Shown here: positions 1-12,059 of the stretch, piece by piece | How positions within the stretch are numbered: the first letter of the stretch is position 1 | Layout of the letters: the number at the start of each line of letters is the position of its first letter | Origin: a virus | Virus record (IMG/VR): IMGVR_UViG_3300007162_000013 | Location: 1 to 36,009 of that record | Length of the DNA stretch: 36,009 bases | Direction: 5' to 3' (one strand) | Notes under the pieces: model-generated | What the model was told of the DNA's origin: nothing | Databases searched by the model: none | What the model saw: the letters and a program-made list of their open reading frames with translations, nothing else | Program-made: the position numbers and the translations under genes

Positions 1-615
1 GGTCGCGTGAAGGCTAAGCTTCAAAAGCATGAGGACATGGCTGCGTCCAAGGCTCACAAGGGCCTGAAGACCGGTGGTGTCGTCAAAGGCAACGGTGGCG
101 GCTACAAAAAAGGCGGCATGGTTGAGGGTGACACCAAGACCTACGAGCAGTACGCTGACGATGGCAACATCATCAAGACCAAGTCACACAAGACGACCAA
201 AGTAGTTCAGGCCAAACCTGATCACTCCCCCGCCAAAACGGGAGATGTGAAGCTGGGCAATGGCGGTGGCTACAAGAAGGGCGGAATGGCTTGTGCAACT
301 GGTGGTGTGGTTGACGGTCAAGGTGGTTACAAAAAGGGCGGTATGGCAAAAAAGGCCTACGCCACGGGGGGAAGTGTTAATAAAGAGGGCGCTCCCGTGG
401 CCATGCCCCAAGGTCGTAAGCCCGCTCCAAAGCCTGTGTACATCACGGAGCTTGCCGGTACGTATAAGACCGGTGGCAAGGTGACCCCTGCACAGGGAAG
501 GTTGCAGAAGATCTTTGATAAAGAGAATGCACCTGCAATGAAGGCTGCCAAGAAGGACTCGAATGAGAAGTACGGTCCCAAGGTAGTTAAAAAGGCTTAC
601 GGCGGCTCGTGCTAA
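1..615 (+). CDS. Gly/Lys-rich repeat protein, 5-prime partial
   Basis: The frame is open to the left edge of the window, so the gene probably starts upstream; an internal GTG at 7 is the first candidate start. The roughly 200 visible residues are basic and glycine-rich, with three copies of a GGYKKGGM motif and several ATGG/KTGG variants in a low-complexity background. No catalytic motif is visible. Short Gly-Lys repeat proteins of this kind occur in virion gene blocks of aquatic phages, and the neighbours here are structural, so a virion or DNA-associated role is possible but not shown. A GC-rich hairpin follows the stop. Existence is likely; function is unknown. Confidence 0.75.
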   Translation, partial: GRVKAKLQKHEDMAASKAHKGLKTGGVVKGNGGGYKKGGMVEGDTKTYEQYADDGNIIKTKSHKTTKVVQAKPDHSPAKTGDVKLGNGGGYKKGGMACATGGVVDGQGGYKKGGMAKKAYATGGSVNKEGAPVAMPQGRKPAPKPVYITELAGTYKTGGKVTPAQGRLQKIFDKENAPAMKAAKKDSNEKYGPKVVKKAYGGSC

Positions 616-619
616 ACCG

Positions 620-639
620 GTGGGGGCTTAGGCCCCCGC
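620..639 (+). other. GC-rich intergenic hairpin
   Basis: GGGGGC (622-627) pairs with GCCCCC (632-637) around a TTAG loop, with two further closing pairs. There is no run of T directly after it, so it is a poor rho-independent terminator. It resembles the hairpins between small genes at 33739, 33992, 35155 and 35735. A role in mRNA 3-prime-end protection or partial termination is inferred. Confidence 0.55.
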
Positions 640-658
640 TTACTTTTAGGATCGAATC

Positions 659-1063
659 ATGGCTGACGCAGTAACGAGTCAAACGCTTTTTGATGGCGAG
701 CGAATGGCCATCATGAAATTTACGAACGTCAGTGATGGCACCGGTGAGTCCGCTGTGCTCAAGGTTGACGTTTCTTCCCTATCGTCTAGTGCCTCAGGTA
801 AAGCCTGTGATGGCGTGACGATCAACAAGATTCACGCTTCTACTGCCGGCATGGGGGTCAATATCCTGTGGGATGCTGATACTGACGTGACCGCTTTTGT
901 GGTGGGCGCTGATGGCTCTTACACGTGGGATTTCTCCATGTTTGGGGGCCTTACGAACAATGCCGGCGATGGCAAGACGGGTGACGTGAGATTCACAACC
1001 GTTGGGGCCACAAGCGGTGACACTTATTCCATCGTGCTTGAGATGGTAAAGAGCTACGCATGA
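659..1063 (+). CDS. Small virion structural protein (putative)
   Basis: This 134-residue protein starts at an ATG preceded by TTTTAGGA and overlaps the next gene by 4 bp (ATGA). The sequence is Gly/Ser/Thr-rich with alternating beta-type hydrophobicity and has no membrane segment or signal peptide. Its style, and its place just before another structural protein, match small virion proteins (head decoration or neck) found after the capsid gene in aquatic podoviruses and pelagic phages. I cannot tell which virion position it takes. The call as structural is an inference from context and composition. Confidence 0.7.
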   Translation: MADAVTSQTLFDGERMAIMKFTNVSDGTGESAVLKVDVSSLSSSASGKACDGVTINKIHASTAGMGVNILWDADTDVTAFVVGADGSYTWDFSMFGGLTNNAGDGKTGDVRFTTVGATSGDTYSIVLEMVKSYA

Positions 1064-1842
1064 GCATCATCTCGTCCGCTACAAGACAGGGGGCTTACGA
1101 GCCCTTTGAGTTACAGGTAGCTCGTGGTCAGATCTACGAGCACAAAAATCTGTTCCGATTTGGCAATAATGCGGACATCAATGGATCGACAGAAACCATT
1201 TGGTCGCATGGTGGGTTGTACGCATATCCTGCCGCTGCGATTCAGATGAAGGTGTCAAGCGCAAGTGCGGATGATGATGCGTCAGGGACGGGGGCCAGAA
1301 CGGTTGTCGTGACGGGTCTGGATGCAAATTACAATGAAATTAGTGAAACCGTTGAGCTCGATGGCCAGACCGCGGTCCTTACGACCAAATCGTTCCTTCG
1401 AGTTTTTATGGCTTACGTTGCTACTGCTGGCTCTGGCGGGACTGCTGCTGGCATTATTTACGTGGGCACGGGAACCGTCACTGCCGGGGTACCTGCTACC
1501 GTCTACGCTGAGATTCCTATAGGTGCCAATCAGTCCCAGATGGCCATGTGGACTGTACCGGCTGGGTACACGCTATACATCACGGGCGGTACGTTCTCGG
1601 CCGCTTCAAATAACGTTGCCCAGTACGTGTTGGGTCAGTTCTTCTTCCGCCCTTTTGGGGGTGTGTTTTTGAACACTGCGGACATTACGGTCAACTCAAA
1701 CGTATTCCGTTATGACTGGGAGATCCCCTTGCCCATTCCAGAAAAGTCAGACATCGAGGCTCGAGCGATTGCTCTGTCTGGGTCGAATTTCTTCATTACG
1801 GCCTCGTTTGAGGGCATTTACATCAAGAATGAGGGCGTCTAA
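1060..1842 (+). CDS. Virion structural protein (putative)
   Basis: This 260-residue protein is translationally coupled to the preceding gene (ATGA overlap) and to the following one (TAATG overlap). It is rich in beta-prone Gly/Thr/Val sequence, with a mid-part resembling an Ig-like or jelly-roll fold, and aromatic residues in its second half (FFFRPFGG, around residues 194-201). No enzyme motif is visible. Similar proteins occur in aquatic phage genomes between capsid and tail genes and are recorded only as structural. The head, neck or tail-accessory role cannot be decided from sequence alone. Confidence 0.7.
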   Translation: MSIISSATRQGAYEPFELQVARGQIYEHKNLFRFGNNADINGSTETIWSHGGLYAYPAAAIQMKVSSASADDDASGTGARTVVVTGLDANYNEISETVELDGQTAVLTTKSFLRVFMAYVATAGSGGTAAGIIYVGTGTVTAGVPATVYAEIPIGANQSQMAMWTVPAGYTLYITGGTFSAASNNVAQYVLGQFFFRPFGGVFLNTADITVNSNVFRYDWEIPLPIPEKSDIEARAIALSGSNFFITASFEGIYIKNEGV

Positions 1843-2246
1843 TGCCTGCCAAGTCTAAAGCTCAGTTCAAGCTCATGAAGGCCGCTGAAAACAATCCCAA
1901 GTTCGCAAAGAAGGTTGGGATCAAGCCTTCTGTGGCCAAAGAGTTCACCGAAAAAAATGTAGGAAAAAAAACATATGACAAGCTTCCTGTCCTCCTTAAA
2001 AAGGGTGGCCCGAGCCTTGCGATTGGCCGCGGTGAAAAGCTTCCAGCGGATCAAGGCGCTGGTCTTACGGCTAAAGGCAGGGAAAAGTACAATCGTGAAA
2101 CCGGATCAAACTTGAAGGCTCCACAACCTCAAGGTGGTAAGCGCAGGGATTCATTCTGTGCGAGGATGGGTCCGGTAGCAGAGAAGAGCGAGAAGGGCAG
2201 TAGAGCTCGCGCATCGATGAAACGTTGGAATTGCCCGGGTTGGTGA
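1842..2246 (+). CDS. Small basic protein with DUF3008-like start and DUF6321-like end
   Basis: This 134-residue, strongly basic protein begins MPAKSKAQ, the hallmark start of DUF3008, and ends with a block containing AKGREKYNRETGSNL, RDSFCARMGPV and RWNCPGW. I associate that block with DUF6321-type phage proteins. Its start overlaps the previous stop by one base (TAATG). The conserved Cys, Arg and Trp residues of the C-terminal block suggest a small fold that binds nucleic acid or a protein partner. Biochemical function is unknown. A DUF5872 gene in the second structural block (11031) is similar in size and charge and also precedes an adaptor gene. Confidence 0.72.
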   Translation: MPAKSKAQFKLMKAAENNPKFAKKVGIKPSVAKEFTEKNVGKKTYDKLPVLLKKGGPSLAIGRGEKLPADQGAGLTAKGREKYNRETGSNLKAPQPQGGKRRDSFCARMGPVAEKSEKGSRARASMKRWNCPGW

Positions 2247-2248
2247 CC

Positions 2249-3310
2249 ATGGCTTATTCAGGAACCGTAGGAACGACTGTTATTGATGTTCAAACCCTGA
2301 TTGATCATGGGGCGAGACGTTGCGGCAAGCTTGCTGAGGAGTTGACCTCTGAGCAGGTTCTATCTTCACGTCAGTCGTTGTATTTCCTGCTCTCAAACCT
2401 GATCAACATCGGTATTCAGTACTGGGCGATTGAGAAGAAGGTTTTCGGCCTGAGGGCTGACAAATACATCTACGACCTCCCCTTGGGTGCAAATGACGCC
2501 CTGAACGTCCTTTATAGGCAGATGGAGCGCCCCTCTGGGAGCTACGCCTCGAGTGCCGGCGGAAACGTTGAGAACGCCTTTGACGACAATGTGGATACGA
2601 TCTGTACGCAGAACGCTGCGAACGGGAATATCTCGGTTGATTACGGTGCTGACAACCCAACTTACATTGGGTCGATTGGAGTGCTTCCCGGCACGTCTGG
2701 GACCTTCAATGTGACCTTTGAGTGGTCCAATGACGGAATTACTTGGAACACCCTCTATACGCCCGGTGCAACGGCTTGGGTGAACGATGAGTGGCTCTGG
2801 TATGACATCCCAGCCGGCGCAACAGCTCGTTTTTATCGTATGCGAGAAACTGGCGGCGCAACCCTGTCAGTTCGTGAGCTGTACTTCGGCAATGATTCGC
2901 TAGAGGTCACGATGGCTCGTTTGAACCGCGATGACTACACGAACCTGCCGAACAAGAACTTCACTGCAAACCAGCCGTATCAATTTTGGTTTGATCGAAC
3001 AGTTCCTCAGCCGTCGGTGTACCTGTGGCCAGTCCCGTCAAGCAATTTTGTGCAGATGACGGTTTGGTACTCGAGGCAGATCATGGACGTTGGATCTTTG
3101 ACTGGTGAGCTCGAGATCCCGCAGAGGTGGTATGAGGCGACTGTGATGATGTTGTCGCACCGGATGGCCTTAGAGCTTCCCGGGGTGGATTTGCCAAGAA
3201 TTCAGTATCTAGAGCAGCAGGCTGACAAGTACTTGTTGCAGGCAGAGATGGAGGAGCGTGACCGCGGACCAATCTACCTTGCGCCCGGAATCCAAGTCTA
3301 TACGAGGTAG
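2249..3310 (+). CDS. Head-tail adaptor-like virion protein with inserted discoidin-like domain
   Basis: The ATG at 2249, two bases after the previous stop, is preferred over an in-frame TTG at 2225 inside the upstream gene, giving 353 residues. The N-terminal ~100 residues are helical (TLIDHGARRCGKLAEEL and following). Residues ~105-215 are a beta-rich insert with FEWSNDGITWNTLY and FYRMRETGG, which looks like an F5/8 type C (discoidin) carbohydrate-binding fold. The C-terminal part resumes with NRDDYTNLPNK, YLWPVP and a helical tail. This layout recalls phage neck/adaptor proteins carrying an accessory sugar-binding domain. The stop is TAG. Structural role likely; exact position uncertain. 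Confidence 0.65.
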   Translation: MAYSGTVGTTVIDVQTLIDHGARRCGKLAEELTSEQVLSSRQSLYFLLSNLINIGIQYWAIEKKVFGLRADKYIYDLPLGANDALNVLYRQMERPSGSYASSAGGNVENAFDDNVDTICTQNAANGNISVDYGADNPTYIGSIGVLPGTSGTFNVTFEWSNDGITWNTLYTPGATAWVNDEWLWYDIPAGATARFYRMRETGGATLSVRELYFGNDSLEVTMARLNRDDYTNLPNKNFTANQPYQFWFDRTVPQPSVYLWPVPSSNFVQMTVWYSRQIMDVGSLTGELEIPQRWYEATVMMLSHRMALELPGVDLPRIQYLEQQADKYLLQAEMEERDRGPIYLAPGIQVYTR

Positions 3311-3312
3311 CG

Positions 3313-3585
3313 ATGCCGATCTTCTTGGACACGGAGGGAATGTCAGACATCGCGATTGCGGTATGCGATCGATGCAGGATGAAGCGCCCCCACGCAATCA
3401 TGCGAAACGACCCGAATTTTCCGGGTTTATTGGTTTGTCCTTACGGCTGCGCGGATGAGTTTGACCCGTACAGATTACCCGCAAGAAAAACCGAAAAAAT
3501 CACAATCAGATTTCCCCGACCTGATGTATCTTTGACCGAGGTGGACGATCAGTCGCCTGAGTATCAAGGGAAATATGGACCGTAA
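3313..3585 (+). CDS. Small zinc-ribbon-like phage protein
   Basis: This 90-residue protein starts two bases after the preceding stop. Four cysteines sit as CDRC (18, 21) and CPYGC (42, 46), which fits a structural zinc site, followed by EFDPYRLPARKTE and a C-terminal RFPRPDVS segment. Proteins with this exact layout (two Cys pairs, then DPYRLP) recur in tail modules of aquatic phages but have no assigned role. Its place between the adaptor-like gene and the tail fibre suggests tail assembly or a minor virion component. Second cysteine spacing is slightly wide, so metal binding is inferred. Confidence 0.7.
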   Translation: MPIFLDTEGMSDIAIAVCDRCRMKRPHAIMRNDPNFPGLLVCPYGCADEFDPYRLPARKTEKITIRFPRPDVSLTEVDDQSPEYQGKYGP

Positions 3586-3595
3586 AGGAATGTAA

Positions 3596-6500
3596 ATGGC
3601 ACAGTCTGGCTACACCCCTATCAAACTATATTACAGTACCGTCACCGGCAACGCGCCTACTGCCACCAACCTTTCGGATGGCGAGCTCGCGATAAACATT
3701 GCTGATGGAAAGCTGTTTTATAAAGACAGCGGTGGAACGGTATCGGTCTTGGCGCAAGCTGGCGCAGTGGTGGCAAACGCGATTGCGGGCGGCACTGCGA
3801 ATCAGGTCGTCTATCAAACGGGCCCCAATACCACATCATTCATTGCCGCTCCATCCACACCCGGCACGTTTCTTTATTGGAGTGGGTCGTCGTTTTCGTG
3901 GCTTACGGGTGCTGGCCTTGGATCAGTCACCTCGGTTGATGCTGACGGCGGAACGACCGGTCTAACATTCACTGGCGGCCCGATCACGACGGCTGGAACT
4001 CTCACCATGTCAGGAACCTTGGCGGTTTCTCATGGGGGGACTGGAATCACTTCATTTGGTACCGGTGTTGCGACAGCGCTTGGATACAACACCACCGGTA
4101 GTGGCGGGATGGTGCTTGAGGACTCGCCATTGTTGGTGACTCCGAATCTTGGCATCCCCTCGGCTGTAGACCTAACTAATGCGACAAATGTCCCCGCTGA
4201 TGAGTTAGTAGGTACGGTTGACGTGACGAATGGCGGCACCGGGGCAGCAACCCTCACGGCAAACAGCCTCATTGTTGGAAACGGCACATCGCCTGTGGCC
4301 GGGATTGCCCCGGGCGCTTCTGGCTATGTGCTAGCGAGTAACGGGACCAACTGGGTGGCCGTTTCTCCAGAAGCCGCAGGTGGTTCTCCGATTGGAACCA
4401 TGGTGTACATGGCCGGAACCACTACCACAGGCTACCCCGGAACCACGTGGCTCAAGTGTGACGGCAGCATCATTTCGAAATCTACGTACTCAACGCTTTT
4501 TGATCGGATTGGGTACGCTCCTGATGGCTTCTCTACGCAGACCCAATGGGGTTATATGGGTCAGGCCACTACCAGTACGATCTGGCGCATGACTTATGGC
4601 GGCGGCAGGTGGATTTATGTAAATAACGGTGGCCGTATTGGAACGTCTACAGACGGCTTCAAATGGTCGGCAGAGACGACTGTTACGACATCCATTCTGT
4701 ACGATGTTAGCTACGGCGGCACGAATAATCTTTACACCGTCGTGGGTAACGTAGGTGTTTTGTATACCTCTACTAACGCGGCCTCTTGGTCCGTTGGCAC
4801 GTCAAATACCACCTCTATTCTGTATGTAACGCATGCCACCCCTTCGCTAATTTCCATAGCGGGTGATTTTGGAGCCTATCAAGCGTCTACGGATGGCGTC
4901 ATTTACTCCACGTATGGCATCAACATGCAGTACACCACTGCGAATGCTACGCCAAGGGTGGCCCGCAACGGAAACACCTATGTTGCTGCTGGTGGTCTCG
5001 GATTCATATCGTACGCAAATGCTGCATTGAGCTTTACTCAGTGGAGCGCTGCCACTTCTGGAACGGTTAGCGAGCTGAGGGACGTCATTAGTAACGGCTC
5101 AAACCTGTTTATTACTGGTGGTGTGGGTGGTGTACTTCTAACATCTCTAAACGGCGCTACTTGGACGGCAAGAACATCTGGAACCACTAGCCACATTAAC
5201 TGCCTGACGAATAATGGGACCACTCTCTACGTTTACGCTGGTGTTGGTGGGGCATTGTCCACTTCTCCTGATGGAACCACGTGGACGGCTCGGACATCTG
5301 GAACTGCCAGCGAAATTCGAGATATTCATTGGGATGGAAGCCAGTATGTGTACGTTGGGGTTGGTGGCGTAGTCGCAACATCTCCGAACGCAATTACATG
5401 GACTGCGCGTACGTCCACCGTTACTTTTCAGCTTGAAGGTGTATGGGGGAATGGAACAAGGTGGGTAGCTGCCGGTTTTGAAGGAACCGTGGTCACGTCT
5501 ACCGACGCCATTACATGGTCGACCACTACGACCCCAACCTTCTCCCGCGAGGATTTCAGCTCAGTTGCGTTTGGAAACAGCACTTGGGTTCTTGTAACCC
5601 AGTCTGGCCAATCATTCACGTCGACTGACGGCATCACTTGGGGCTGGGGCAAGAACTTTAACTTGGAGTTCCTAAATGTGAACTTCTTAAGTGGCGTCTT
5701 TGTTTTCAGCGCGTCGAATTTTGTCGCCACTTCTACTGACCTGATCTCTTATGTTTACGCCGGTGGATCGGCGATGAACCGCAGAATTTACGACATTACT
5801 ACCAACACAGCAAATGACAAGTGGGTGATGGTTTCTACGTCGAAACAAAATAACTCCACCGCCCAGAATCGTTGGTCGAATATCAGGTATTCAAGCGATG
5901 GCTACACTTGGCTGGGGGCCCCAGTACAGGGCGATGGGCCTTATACGCAAAACTGTTTGGCCACCACGGTGACCTATCTTTCGGTTGGTTATGGTGATGG
6001 TATGTACGTCGCCGGCGGAAACAATGGTCAGGTGCTCACCTCGACCGATGGGGAGACATGGACATCCTATGGTCTGGCAACGAACTCGACCGCCACGATG
6101 CTTGAGTTCGGAACGGATCTGTACGTCCTCGGGTATGAGATGCAGCGCAACTCAACTCAGACAACGTGGTGGAACTGGACAACTGCCCCGAACCCTTCGA
6201 CCGCAAACCAAGGATTGTTTGCGCCGGTTAGGGCCATCAACGACGGCACAAAAATCGTTACGTGCGGCGGTTCTGGGCTAGCTTGGACCACCACTGATTG
6301 GAGCGCTTGGACGCAAGTTACGGCCACCACTTCGGGCCAACAGCTTAACTGCCTAAGTTACAACGGCTCCGTGTACGTTATTGGTGGTCAGGCTGCTACT
6401 ATCCTGTCCTCAACAGATGCTGTCACATGGACTCCACGCACCTCTGCCGGAGGTACCCATCACTACGGGTTGGCATGGGGTTCTGGGCCCGGTTTGTGGG

Positions 6501-8179
6501 TCATGACGAGCAACACGGGTGCTATTCAGACCTCGCCCGATGGCATTACTTGGACGGCCCGCACGTCGGGTACTGCACAATCGCTCAACTGGGCGCATTA
6601 TGCGAATAATCTGTATGTCGCGGTCGGGAACAACAATACGGTTGTCACATCAACCAATGGGACCACTTGGACCCTAACATCTGCGGCGGTTGGCAGCTGG
6701 GGTTATGTCACTTACGCCCAGAGCAAATGGGTTCTATCCGGAACCGCTAATGTTCTAACCACGACTGATTTTGTTACCTTCTCAACCGTTTATACAAGCC
6801 CTCAATCTGCGCTAGCAGTCAGGGCGTACTACGGCGACATTTCCGGCAAATGGTACCTTGTTCATGATTACGGAAACATTGTTACCTCCACCGACCTTGT
6901 GACATTCAGCAAGCGTTACGGTGGGGTTCCGCAGAATGCGGCCATCAACGGAATGACGTATGACGGCACTTATTGGGTGGCGGGTACTTCAACAAACGTT
7001 TCGACTGCTGCTGGTAGAAATCTGTTCACCTCGACGGATGCACAGACTTGGGTGGCCACAGGAAGCCAGCAGGAGACCATCTCGGTCTGCAACTACGTTG
7101 AGTATGGGAATGGTATTACCCTTGCCGTAGGGAACGCTGGACGCGGCTTCTACGCAGCTACAGACCCGTCAGTGTCGTTCTACTCTTGGGCGCTACTTAC
7201 GACCTCTACTCCGAGGAGTATCGCGTATGGTTCAGACGGCAAGGTAGTAGTGGTCGGTCAAGGCGGATTCATTCGTTATTCAACTGACGGAAGGGTGTTT
7301 AACACCGTCACCTCTGGGACCACTTCGGTACTGAATACCGTTTCCTACGGAAATGGGCTGTGGGTGTGCGCTGGTGATGGTGGCGCTTTAAGGACCTCTA
7401 CAGACGGTATCACATGGACTGGAACCACGCTGGGTGGCGCTCCATCGGTATTGGACATCATCTATGTGCCAGAGCAGAGCTTGTGGCTCTACACCACTGC
7501 TGGCGCTCCCGGTGGAGTGGTTACGACCACAGACTTCGTTACTTTTACTGGGCGTGCGACAACCATTGCTACGGGCAACATTTACACTGCCGTTTGGGGT
7601 AATGGACAGCTCATTGTTGGCTCAGATACCGGCGAGATGTCGATATCGAACAATGCCGTAAATGGATACTGGGCGGTATGGAGAGCTATCACAAGCCCGA
7701 CTGTAAGTACTCAGGGGATTCTCCGGCTCAATTACTTTGCGGATGATCCAAAGATTAACTATATATTCGGCTCGAGCAATGGTGTAATTGCTACATCTTC
7801 TGGTGGCTGGGAATGGGACATGCATCGATGCATGAGCGTAGGAACCACGACGGCCCAGTTTGGAGCTGTGTGGTCAAGTGCTTATCACGACGGCTACTAC
7901 TTCATCGGCGGCCAATTTGGTTCCACCTTCTATACCCGAGATCCGAACAAATGGACCACAAGAATCATCCCTACAATTACGAGCTACGACATTTACGAGT
8001 TTGCCAGCACACCATATGGTCTGTTGTCGATTGGCTTGTCTAGCGGCATATACCATATCTACAGTCCCACTTATAACTACAATACGGCCATCGAATTCAG
8101 GGTTCCCGACGCTATCCCTGAGTATTTGCCAAGCGTCAATGGAGAAGTAGACTCGGCTTTGTGGATAAAAGCCTTATAA
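3596..8179 (+). CDS. Giant tail fibre with about 28 beta-propeller blades inserted in a collar domain
   Basis: This 1527-residue protein is preceded by AAAGGA. Residues 1-60 (NLSDGELAINIADGKLFYKD) are a common phage fibre N-terminus that anchors to the tail. Residues ~130-260 hold GGTG-type beta repeats. Residues ~267-315 (GTMVYMAG, WLKCDGSIISKSTY, LFDRIG) match the first half of a phage tail collar domain. Residues ~319-1493 hold about 28 repeats of ~40 residues of the form WVAxGxxGxxxTSTDGxTWT, like BNR/Ycf48-type propeller blades. Residues ~1499-1527 (EFRVPD then ALWIKAL) look like the missing second half of the collar. It is probably the receptor-binding fibre. The glycosyltransferase and tail chaperone genes follow directly. 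Confidence 0.85.
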   Translation: MAQSGYTPIKLYYSTVTGNAPTATNLSDGELAINIADGKLFYKDSGGTVSVLAQAGAVVANAIAGGTANQVVYQTGPNTTSFIAAPSTPGTFLYWSGSSFSWLTGAGLGSVTSVDADGGTTGLTFTGGPITTAGTLTMSGTLAVSHGGTGITSFGTGVATALGYNTTGSGGMVLEDSPLLVTPNLGIPSAVDLTNATNVPADELVGTVDVTNGGTGAATLTANSLIVGNGTSPVAGIAPGASGYVLASNGTNWVAVSPEAAGGSPIGTMVYMAGTTTTGYPGTTWLKCDGSIISKSTYSTLFDRIGYAPDGFSTQTQWGYMGQATTSTIWRMTYGGGRWIYVNNGGRIGTSTDGFKWSAETTVTTSILYDVSYGGTNNLYTVVGNVGVLYTSTNAASWSVGTSNTTSILYVTHATPSLISIAGDFGAYQASTDGVIYSTYGINMQYTTANATPRVARNGNTYVAAGGLGFISYANAALSFTQWSAATSGTVSELRDVISNGSNLFITGGVGGVLLTSLNGATWTARTSGTTSHINCLTNNGTTLYVYAGVGGALSTSPDGTTWTARTSGTASEIRDIHWDGSQYVYVGVGGVVATSPNAITWTARTSTVTFQLEGVWGNGTRWVAAGFEGTVVTSTDAITWSTTTTPTFSREDFSSVAFGNSTWVLVTQSGQSFTSTDGITWGWGKNFNLEFLNVNFLSGVFVFSASNFVATSTDLISYVYAGGSAMNRRIYDITTNTANDKWVMVSTSKQNNSTAQNRWSNIRYSSDGYTWLGAPVQGDGPYTQNCLATTVTYLSVGYGDGMYVAGGNNGQVLTSTDGETWTSYGLATNSTATMLEFGTDLYVLGYEMQRNSTQTTWWNWTTAPNPSTANQGLFAPVRAINDGTKIVTCGGSGLAWTTTDWSAWTQVTATTSGQQLNCLSYNGSVYVIGGQAATILSSTDAVTWTPRTSAGGTHHYGLAWGSGPGLWVMTSNTGAIQTSPDGITWTARTSGTAQSLNWAHYANNLYVAVGNNNTVVTSTNGTTWTLTSAAVGSWGYVTYAQSKWVLSGTANVLTTTDFVTFSTVYTSPQSALAVRAYYGDISGKWYLVHDYGNIVTSTDLVTFSKRYGGVPQNAAINGMTYDGTYWVAGTSTNVSTAAGRNLFTSTDAQTWVATGSQQETISVCNYVEYGNGITLAVGNAGRGFYAATDPSVSFYSWALLTTSTPRSIAYGSDGKVVVVGQGGFIRYSTDGRVFNTVTSGTTSVLNTVSYGNGLWVCAGDGGALRTSTDGITWTGTTLGGAPSVLDIIYVPEQSLWLYTTAGAPGGVVTTTDFVTFTGRATTIATGNIYTAVWGNGQLIVGSDTGEMSISNNAVNGYWAVWRAITSPTVSTQGILRLNYFADDPKINYIFGSSNGVIATSSGGWEWDMHRCMSVGTTTAQFGAVWSSAYHDGYYFIGGQFGSTFYTRDPNKWTTRIIPTITSYDIYEFASTPYGLLSIGLSSGIYHIYSPTYNYNTAIEFRVPDAIPEYLPSVNGEVDSALWIKAL

Positions 8180-8193
8180 ACCTAGGAGAGAAA

Positions 8194-8898
8194 ATGCAGC
8201 AAGATATTCACGTACTTGTAGTAACACCTGCGTATAGCGGAAAGGTCAATGCTCAGTACGCCGTGGCACTTGCGGACACTCAACTGTTGCTGAAAAGCAA
8301 GGGAATCAACATCACATTCAGAATTTCTGCCTCCGGTTCGTTGCTGGTAGCTGAGAGAAATCGGCTCACGCAAGCTTTTATGGAGTCAGAAGCGACGCAC
8401 ATGTTGTGTATTGATTCGGACCTCGGGTGGCCACCTGAGGCAGTTTTGAAGATGTTGGAAGCTGACAAGGAGTTTGTGTGTGGCATTTACCCGGTTCGGG
8501 GTCACAACACATTTACGTTTAGGCCCGACTGCAACCCCAATGGGTCAATTATCCAAGAGGGTCACCTGCTAAAGATGCAGTATGTTCCCGCTGGATTCAT
8601 GCTCATAAAGCGCAGCGCCATTAAGAAGATGCAGGAAAAGCACAAGGACACCTACTTTAGCCCCAAGCATCATGAGAATCCCACCGGATCTGGCTACTGC
8701 CTTTTCAATACCGAGGTCTATGAGGGTGAGTTTTGGGGCGAGGATTATGTGTTTTGTAGAAAGGCTACTGAGGCGGGTGTCGATATTTGGGCCGACCCGC
8801 TCATTACCTTTGATCACAATGGAACCGTAGGGGTTCTAACGTCGGTCCTTAGCGATAAGCCGCCTGAGGACCAAGTGACTGATGTTGAAGCCAAATAG
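8194..8898 (+). CDS. GT-A-type glycosyltransferase
   Basis: The ATG at 8194 is chosen because AGGAGAG lies just upstream; an in-frame GTG at 8161 lies inside the fibre gene. The 234-residue product has a GT-A (Rossmann-like) pattern: VLVVTPAYSG at the start, ERNRLTQAF near 54-62, and the metal/nucleotide-sugar DxD motif at residues 74-76 (MLCIDSDLGWPPE). A C-terminal GEDYVFCRKATEAG plus DHNG completes the family pattern of an acidic catalytic region and a late histidine. It would transfer a sugar to an unknown acceptor. Position between the fibre and its chaperone suggests modification of a virion protein, but DNA or host surface glycan remains possible. Confidence 0.8.
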   Translation: MQQDIHVLVVTPAYSGKVNAQYAVALADTQLLLKSKGINITFRISASGSLLVAERNRLTQAFMESEATHMLCIDSDLGWPPEAVLKMLEADKEFVCGIYPVRGHNTFTFRPDCNPNGSIIQEGHLLKMQYVPAGFMLIKRSAIKKMQEKHKDTYFSPKHHENPTGSGYCLFNTEVYEGEFWGEDYVFCRKATEAGVDIWADPLITFDHNGTVGVLTSVLSDKPPEDQVTDVEAK

Positions 8899-8906
8899 GT
8901 GATTGC

Positions 8907-9296
8907 ATGTTAGTGTCCCGACTAGATCAAAATGGTGTGTTCCTCGAGGCCGTGGAGTATGAGTTTTCAGACGGCGTTATGGTCCTTCCCAAGGGCTACA
9001 GCTTCTCGTTGCCACCAGAGATTCCGTCGGGGCACTACGCAATCCTTCAGGGCGACTGGAAGATTATTGAGGGCAGCCCATATGGTGCTCCTGAGTCTAA
9101 TGAGGACGCCCCCTCTTTAATTGATTTTCGGATACGAAGGAATGAGCTCCTGTCCGAATCTGACTGGACTCAGCTTGCTGATGCTCCACTCACGGCTGAG
9201 CAGAAATCTGCATGGGCCACGTACCGTCAGGCATTGCGAGATATCCCACAGTCCGAGGGCTACCCTGATAGCTTCATATGGCCCAATAGACCGTGA
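8907..9296 (+). CDS. Phage tail assembly chaperone-like protein
   Basis: This 129-residue protein starts at an ATG after AGGTGATTGC. Its last ~60 residues carry the signature of the phage tail assembly chaperone family (Phage_tail_APC type): RRNELLSESDWTQLADAPL, then WATYRQALRDIP and a closing IWPNRP. The N-terminal half is a variable beta-rich part that in relatives adapts to the local fibre. Its place two genes after the giant fibre fits a role in fibre folding or attachment. Its stop overlaps the next gene's GTG start. The family call is confident; the precise client is inferred. Confidence 0.85.
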   Translation: MLVSRLDQNGVFLEAVEYEFSDGVMVLPKGYSFSLPPEIPSGHYAILQGDWKIIEGSPYGAPESNEDAPSLIDFRIRRNELLSESDWTQLADAPLTAEQKSAWATYRQALRDIPQSEGYPDSFIWPNRP

Positions 9297-9793
9297 TCGA
9301 CCCAATAACCGCCCTAGCCACCGCGACGGCAGTCTTTAATGGACTGAAGAAGGCGGTTGAAATAGGCAGAGAGGCCGAGGACATCTTCGGCCAACTGTCT
9401 AAATGGGCTACGGCGGTTGCAGACGTACACGAGGGGATTGCTCAGGCGGACAAGCCGCCTCCCCTCTTTAAGAAGCTGACCTTTGCGAATGACAATGCCG
9501 CAGCCTTTGATGCGTATGCCGCCAAGGTTAAGCTTCAGCAACAGGAGAAAGAGCTGTACGAGATGTTCCTGTACGGGGAGCTTCAGCACCTCGGGGTGGA
9601 TGGGTACAAGGAACTCATCAACATGCGCCGCAAGATCAAAGAGGATCGGGAGCGGCAGATCTACGCACAGGCTCGACGACGAAAAGAGTTTGTGGACGCT
9701 GTGGGTACATGGGCGCTGGTTTTACTGGCGCTTTTAGTTGCTGGCGTAGCAATCTGGCTGACGATCCACGTCATCACGAATAGGGGGCTGTAA
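9293..9793 (+). CDS. C-terminally anchored membrane protein of the lysis region
   Basis: This 166-residue protein starts with GTG overlapping the preceding TGA (GTGA). The N-terminus (MIDPITALATATAVFNGLKKA) is a hydrophobic/amphipathic helix, followed by a long charged helical part (residues ~85-138). One clear transmembrane helix at ~140-162 (WALVLLALLVAGVAIWLTI) ends seven residues before the C-terminus. Proteins of this shape precede holin genes in aquatic podoviruses. A lysis function (antiholin or spanin-like) is possible, though there is no lipobox and no signal sequence. Function not established. Confidence 0.7.
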   Translation: MIDPITALATATAVFNGLKKAVEIGREAEDIFGQLSKWATAVADVHEGIAQADKPPPLFKKLTFANDNAAAFDAYAAKVKLQQQEKELYEMFLYGELQHLGVDGYKELINMRRKIKEDRERQIYAQARRRKEFVDAVGTWALVLLALLVAGVAIWLTIHVITNRGL

Positions 9794-11423: not shown

Positions 11424-12059
11424 ATGACTGCTGCTGCCGTAATGACTTATGACAGCCTCGTCGAAGACATTGAGTCTTATCTCGATCGAACTGATCAGGC
11501 CACCATTCAAAAAATACCGACATTCATCATGCTGGCTGAGCAGGTTATCGCTGCTGAGCTCAAGTTCCTTGGAAACCTGACGGTCAACACCTCAAATTTC
11601 GTCAAGGGTCAGGCGATTGTAGACAAGCCTGCTCGCTGGAGAAAGACCGTTTCTATGAACGTGACAGTGGCTGGCGAACGTCGCCCTGTCCTCCTCCGCA
11701 AGTACGAATACCTTCGTGAGTACTGGCCAGATCCAGCCGAAGAGGGCGTTCCTGCTTACTACTGTGATTATGACTACACGCACTGGTTGGTAGCGGCTAC
11801 ACCAGACGACGATTATGAGTTTGAGGTGCTGTATTACGAGCGATTGCAGCCGCTAGATTCCTCAAACCAAACGAATTGGTTTACCCAGTACGCTCCTCAG
11901 GCGATGCTATATGGCAGCCTTTTGCAGGCCATGCCGTTCCTGAAAAACGACGAGCGAATTCCGATGTGGCAGGGCCAGTACGACAAGATTATGGGGGTTC
12001 TCAAAGTTGAGGATATTTCTCGTATTGGTGACCGCCAAACAATTGTGAGGGATTCATGA
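11424..12059 (+). CDS. Head-tail adaptor (P22 gp4-like)
   Basis: This 211-residue protein starts directly after the preceding stop. Its mostly helical N-terminus (DSLVEDIESYLDRTDQATIQKIPTFIMLAEQVIAAEL) and later LRKYEYLREYWPDP, YYERLQPLDSSNQTNWFTQYAP and LYGSLLQAMPFLKND match the family of podoviral adaptor/head-completion proteins related to P22 gp4. In that family, monomers form a ring beneath the portal and receive the nozzle. The nozzle gene lies one gene downstream, which supports the assignment. ATGA coupling links it to the following fibre-like gene. Confidence 0.82.
   Translation: MTAAAVMTYDSLVEDIESYLDRTDQATIQKIPTFIMLAEQVIAAELKFLGNLTVNTSNFVKGQAIVDKPARWRKTVSMNVTVAGERRPVLLRKYEYLREYWPDPAEEGVPAYYCDYDYTHWLVAATPDDDYEFEVLYYERLQPLDSSNQTNWFTQYAPQAMLYGSLLQAMPFLKNDERIPMWQGQYDKIMGVLKVEDISRIGDRQTIVRDS

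Follow-up and report, generated by a model that had tools for sequence, protein, structure and literature searches.

In a viral DNA window of 36,009 nucleotides, corresponding to positions 1 to 36,009 of the IMG/VR virus record IMGVR_UViG_3300007162_000013, we identified a gene for a 1527-residue fiber protein in which the first half of a phage tail collar domain, a long array of beta-propeller blades, and a collar-like C-terminal motif follow each other in this order. We consider it very probable that the protein is the tail fiber of a short-tailed phage in which one loop of the collar is replaced by four tandem propellers, with the chain then returning to finish the collar and the propellers contacting the host. 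An earlier interpretation, made from the sequence alone and without database searches (hereafter, the sequence-only reading), had proposed a collar split by about 28 blades that form four seven-bladed propellers. Our results confirm that the split-collar order, the blades, and the C-terminal motif are real, and they support the proposal, which was largely right. Dozens of related phages have a split collar with whole propellers, and this family is apparently undescribed. The parts of the fiber gene are listed below.

3596-8179, plus strand: fiber gene, 1527 aa, with anchor/shaft, split collar, and 28-blade array (open reading frame; Pfam match to the collar half)
3596-4393, plus strand: putative N-terminal anchor and shaft, residues 1-266 (common to hundreds of viral contigs, in which the C-terminal tips vary)
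4394-4528, plus strand: collar first half (strands, WLKCDG, helix LFDRIG), residues 267-311 (PF07484 match)
4538-4555, plus strand: probable closing strand TQTQWGY, residues 315-320 (alignments with relatives; presumed role)
4559-5410, plus strand: blades 1-7, presumed propeller 1, residues 322-605 (blade profile; grouping into sevens taken from the family)
5411-6322, plus strand: blades 8-14, presumed propeller 2, residues 606-909 (blade profile; blades 10, 13, and 14 diverged)
6323-7189, plus strand: blades 15-21, presumed propeller 3, residues 910-1198 (blade profile)
7190-8062, plus strand: blades 22-28, presumed propeller 4, residues 1199-1489 (blade profile; last blade without outer strand)
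8063-8176, plus strand: putative collar second half EFRVPD...ALWIKAL, residues 1490-1527 (motif kept at the end of relatives; weak gain with the joined profile)

Blade number changes in steps of seven

Residues 322-1489 are a series of tandem units, each about 41 residues long and patterned as WVAxGxxGxxxTSTDGxTWT. When these repeats were made into a profile, it detected 27 units, from residue 323 to residue 1456. One more blade at the end of the array (residues 1458-1489) has no TSTDG motif, but it aligns with the final blade of relatives and brings the total to 28, in agreement with the estimate of about 28 made by eye. The units average 41.7 aa, and the count is accurate to ±1 because blades 10, 13, and 14 are diverged; by length alone the insert would correspond to 29.5 blades, some of the blades being long. 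The DUF6242 (PF19755) propeller profile scored 16.1 bits against the fiber, below its cut-off of 29, and sequence searches of the PDB with the fiber and with the propeller profile found no relative.

The strongest argument for four seven-bladed propellers comes from the family, in which blade number steps by seven. A search for a DNA pattern encoding W-L-x-C-D-G followed by a blade motif within about 60 residues returned 11 viral stretches, nearly all encoding split-collar propeller genes, the complete ones terminating in F-[QAVR]-[VL]-P...[YW]IKA, and further pattern and profile scans added many split-collar relatives. The same order of collar half, blades, and collar end was found in 48 non-redundant proteins, a recurrence that excludes chance as its explanation. 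With blade number calculated as insert length divided by each protein's own blade spacing, the inserts contain 7 (19 proteins), 14 (24), 21 (2), 28 (2), or 42 (1) blades. On average they deviate from the nearest multiple of seven by 0.31 blades, against a chance expectation of 1.75; since relatedness is not fully removed from the set of 48, the associated Monte Carlo p is no strict probability. Modules of 4 to 6 and of 8 to 10 blades do not fit the insert lengths, and only a module of 7 does; one outlier (L084) is a frame-shifted copy. The array has been changed by whole seven-bladed propellers within this family, in which 1, 2, 3, 4, and 6 propellers were found, and the 28 units of the window agree with the four propellers of the sequence-only reading.

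The window fiber is not the largest of its family: a split-collar fiber of 2059 residues in L398 (963-7139, minus strand) has about 42 blades, or six propellers. Three tandem split-collar genes with 28, 21, and 21 blades occupy positions 627-9722 (minus strand) of L399, and three with 7 blades each lie at 403-3864 (plus strand) of L400. Tandem 7-blade paralogues are also present in L129, L130, L131, and L138, where the collar half lacks the CDG motif. A pattern scan of genome contigs returned mostly chance matches, together with one split collar (Paludibacterium) and one Massilia propeller protein without a collar motif. The Paludibacterium genome harbors several prophages, each with a split-collar copy; in one genome, probably of Paludibacterium denitrificans, four prophages (L120-L123) each carry a 7-blade copy, two of which are frame-shifted, either through assembly error or in reality. 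A further phage protein of 2054 residues (L136, 559-6720, plus strand) contains 34 blades (35 counting a weak last one) and no recognized collar.

Structure of a seven-bladed relative

We modeled a complete 7-blade relative of 368 aa (L090) with AlphaFold 2 using 14 sequences. The model is confident (predicted local distance difference test score [pLDDT] 89.9; predicted template modeling score 0.82) and forms one seven-bladed propeller, matching seven-bladed structures with Z scores of 29.6-33.9 over residues 58-355; for residues 60-341, the matches include virginiamycin B lyase (Z 33) and the designer protein v13WRAP-T (Z 29.6). A single non-propeller beta-solenoid, the fold that would have contradicted the sequence-only reading, is thereby excluded for the family. 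Both collar halves are predicted to form strands outside the propeller: TIT, WLK, and VYL plus a helix before it, corresponding to the first half, and QFA and TYIK after it, corresponding to the second. Among deposited predicted structures, a propeller-like match at rank 22 is named tail collar protein.

First half and putative second half of the collar

The Pfam Collar profile (PF07484) matches residues 269-307 of the fiber with columns 3-37 of its 57, scoring 23.1 bits with the whole protein and, above the cut-off of 24 bits, 28.5-30.2 bits with the segment alone; at its widest, the match covers residues 269-311 and columns 2-37. The match breaks after column 37 and is not continuous through F-x-LPD-x-RG; the F-x-V-P motif of the window fiber is found about 1190 residues past the collar first half, and the RG is absent. 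The assignment of residues ~267-315 to the first half of a collar is thereby upheld. A six-frame search of the 36-kb record with the collar profile found no second collar, including an intact one that would speak against a split. In alignments, the TQTQWGY of the window corresponds to the [VP]WT[SQ]R that opens the insert in relatives.

The final residues of the fiber are EFRVPDAIPEYLPSVNGEVDSALWIKAL, as had been described, with the F-x-V-P motif lying within residues 1499-1527. Relatives keep EFRVPD...ALWIKAL at their C-terminus in the form F-x-[VL]-P...[YW]IKA, and intact collars carry F-x-LPD...YIIKT, so that the motifs of split collars come in the same order. Joining the two halves raised the score from 29.4 to 33.2 bits for PHROG 523 and from 15.9 to 21.5 bits for PHROG 4924, and the PHROG collar scores rose little or not at all when shuffled or blade controls were joined to the first half.

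Several results weigh against the proposed architecture. No profile matched the second collar half by itself, and the gain on joining the halves is small. Against a profile built from 27 intact collars minus their T4-type insert, the joined window sequence ranked in the top ~4-5% of controls with shuffled or unrelated tails, a weak signal; all 13 of the 13 members scored above the control mean, most of them not significantly when taken singly, and a shorter, simpler intact-collar profile gave no second-half signal for the window. By sequence alone, the second half is therefore weakly supported. Regarding the rings, no period-7 similarity was detected when the blades of the window fiber were compared with one another (p 0.31), and the AlphaFold 2 model of a 14-blade relative is poor (pLDDT 61.6) and does not define ring boundaries. 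One ring of that model matches seven-bladed WD40 proteins, and some of the WD40 alignments join a strand near residue 60 to the last ring, a pairing that would bring the ends of the insert together, in a region where pLDDT is below 50.

The profile results would be expected if a truncated collar had been kept as a linker to appended propellers and the C-terminal F-x-V-P...WIKA capped the last propeller without being related to the collar; the failure of profiles to find the second half alone and the slight increase in joined scores both favor this explanation. We nevertheless regard it as unlikely, because F-x-[VL]-P and the C-terminal [YW]IKA/T are ordered as in intact collars, because both end motifs are kept in diverged relatives with 7 to 42 blades, and because both acquire strand structure outside the propeller in the L090 model. 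A further argument comes from L196 (2344-4545, plus strand), in which a single collar carries propellers of about 7 blades each at two sites, one from the first strand to the CDG-equivalent segment and the other from the helix to F-V-T-P, and the protein still ends in F-V-T-P...YIKA; such an arrangement is difficult to account for if the collar does not serve as the scaffold. For the second collar half, motif conservation in diverged relatives and the L090 strands carry more weight than the profile scores.

A different question is whether the array, instead of binding, could act as an enzyme, a depolymerase or lyase that cleaves a surface glycan. In fold, the L090 propeller is closest to virginiamycin B lyases, and propellers are used by phage endosialidases (PMC4901313). 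Yet L090 is only 13% identical to the matched lyase-type structures, a match to virginiamycin lyase is generic for seven-bladed folds, searches of Pfam, NCBIfam, and PDB sequences gave no enzyme family, and the blades are degenerate, freely varying repeats, which together make catalysis improbable. That the blades form one long solenoid or larger rings in place of separate seven-bladed rings, as the lack of an internal period of seven and the unclear 14-blade model might suggest, is scarcely credible given the quantization at seven and the confident seven-bladed L090 model.

Proposed architecture and comparison with known fibers and adhesins

In the architecture that we favor, the common N-terminal anchor and shaft would carry a collar at their distal end, trimeric by comparison with T4 gp12 and gp37. 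Four seven-bladed beta-propellers in tandem would take the place of the loop leading from the collar helix to the F-x-V-P strand, and the chain would then come back to complete the collar by adding the last strands. The insert appears to open with the outer strand of a blade and to finish with a blade that lacks one strand, an offset at both ends that would let the blades close through the usual velcro. These propellers would display host-contacting surfaces, most likely for surface glycans, in many copies per fiber, providing avidity. The first 255 residues of the fiber are found in hundreds of viral contigs in which the C-terminal parts differ, as expected if an anchor and shaft can be fitted with different tips; this exchange and the analogy with T4 gp12 and gp37 suggest that the propellers are located at the fiber tip and bind the receptor.

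Interruption of a collar by a host-contacting part is known. In T4 gp37, the D11 tip, or needle (residues 882-1009), is inserted into the D10 collar, splitting it into residues 811-881 and 1010-1026 (PMC6957217), and the gp12 short tail fiber has a collar like that of gp37 (PMC3004832). In both T4 proteins, as proposed for the window, the chain leaves the collar, forms the receptor-binding part, and returns with the last strands. The variant described here is in the inserted part, propellers in place of a needle or bonnet, and in the loop that receives it. Aligned to an intact phage collar, the gp12 structure (1OCY) shows no break up to and including LPDMRG, which places the gp12 insertion after the LPD strand, whereas the break in the window precedes F-x-V-P. 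At the T4 site, 27 intact collars have an insert of 68-220 aa, which is cut to about 20 residues in the window. A Microcystis phage Mae-JY35 protein (XAI96525, PF07484) has the first half, helix, and terminal strand motif of the window in an intact, propeller-free collar.

Two isolated Caulobacter phages, KSC and Percy, also have the split-collar architecture, which makes it accessible in the laboratory. KSC gp039 and the Percy tail fiber, both annotated only as tail fiber, have a collar half that is degenerate, an insert long enough for about 14 blades, and the ending F-[RS]-[VI]-P...Y[VL]KI; unlike the window fiber, they have a T7-like N-terminal part and no downstream glycosyltransferase. 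Beta-propellers occur in known or proposed phage receptor-binding proteins, including Staphylococcus phage phi11 Gp45, PhiKZ gp131C, and PRD1 P2 (PMC4901313), in which they are single five- or seven-bladed propellers outside any collar. Tentaclins and the fibers of extracellular contractile injection systems are modular phage-type adhesins, some with a collar and others with a propeller (PMC10743442); we found no case of a propeller within a collar among them, and no description of a propeller-interrupted collar in the literature searched, which covered few subscription journals.

The split collar looks like an expandable holder of the receptor-binding part of the fiber. A common phage-fiber scaffold would thus take very large inserts at a loop unlike that of T4 gp12, and growth by one propeller at a time offers a testable picture of how a host-contacting surface may be enlarged without rebuilding the trimer core.

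Tail module and the downstream glycosyltransferase-like gene

The window encodes two proteins resembling the SU10 adaptor, at 2225-3310 (20 bits, below the cut-off) and 11424-12059 (90 bits), which point to the tail module of a short-tailed phage. Two further genes lie downstream of the fiber.

8161-8898, plus strand: glycosyltransferase-like gene (PHROG 1574/34859), directly downstream of the fiber gene and overlapping its stop
8907-9296, plus strand: tail fiber assembly chaperone (PF16778 Phage_tail_APC, 80.7 bits), two genes downstream of the fiber

For the glycosyltransferase-like profile, no solved structure was found, and Pfam and NCBIfam gave no name. The gene directly follows the fiber in nearly all relatives with at least 14 blades: relatives of the enzyme were present at this position in 6 of 6 14-blade loci with the region covered and in all three further contigs predicted to have the gene, and absent from ten control records, which included 7-blade loci and the Caulobacter phages. 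In seven 14- or 28-blade fibers accompanied by the enzyme, each protein contains the turn motif T-S-x-T-x-S 3-11 times, and nine fibers without the enzyme lack it altogether; relatedness could explain this association. The linkage raises the question of fiber glycosylation. We tentatively put forward, as a possibility that is itself doubtful, that the collar is an expandable holder gaining and losing whole propellers, sometimes in tandem genes, and that fibers with at least 14 blades are modified by a dedicated glycosyltransferase, plausibly on the Ser/Thr-rich TSxTxS turns between blades; if true, the phage would possess an adhesin together with an enzyme devoted to decorating it.

A wider scan found about 51 viral loci encoding the enzyme at ≥43% identity, relatives located after propeller fibers being 43-61% identical. 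Most of these loci have a propeller gene directly upstream and some have another long or fiber-like gene, and this variation ties the enzyme to the fiber slot rather than strictly to propellers. The enzyme also lies beside some 7-blade tandem genes (L311, L330), and distant homologues (≤34% identity) are found in a different gene context.

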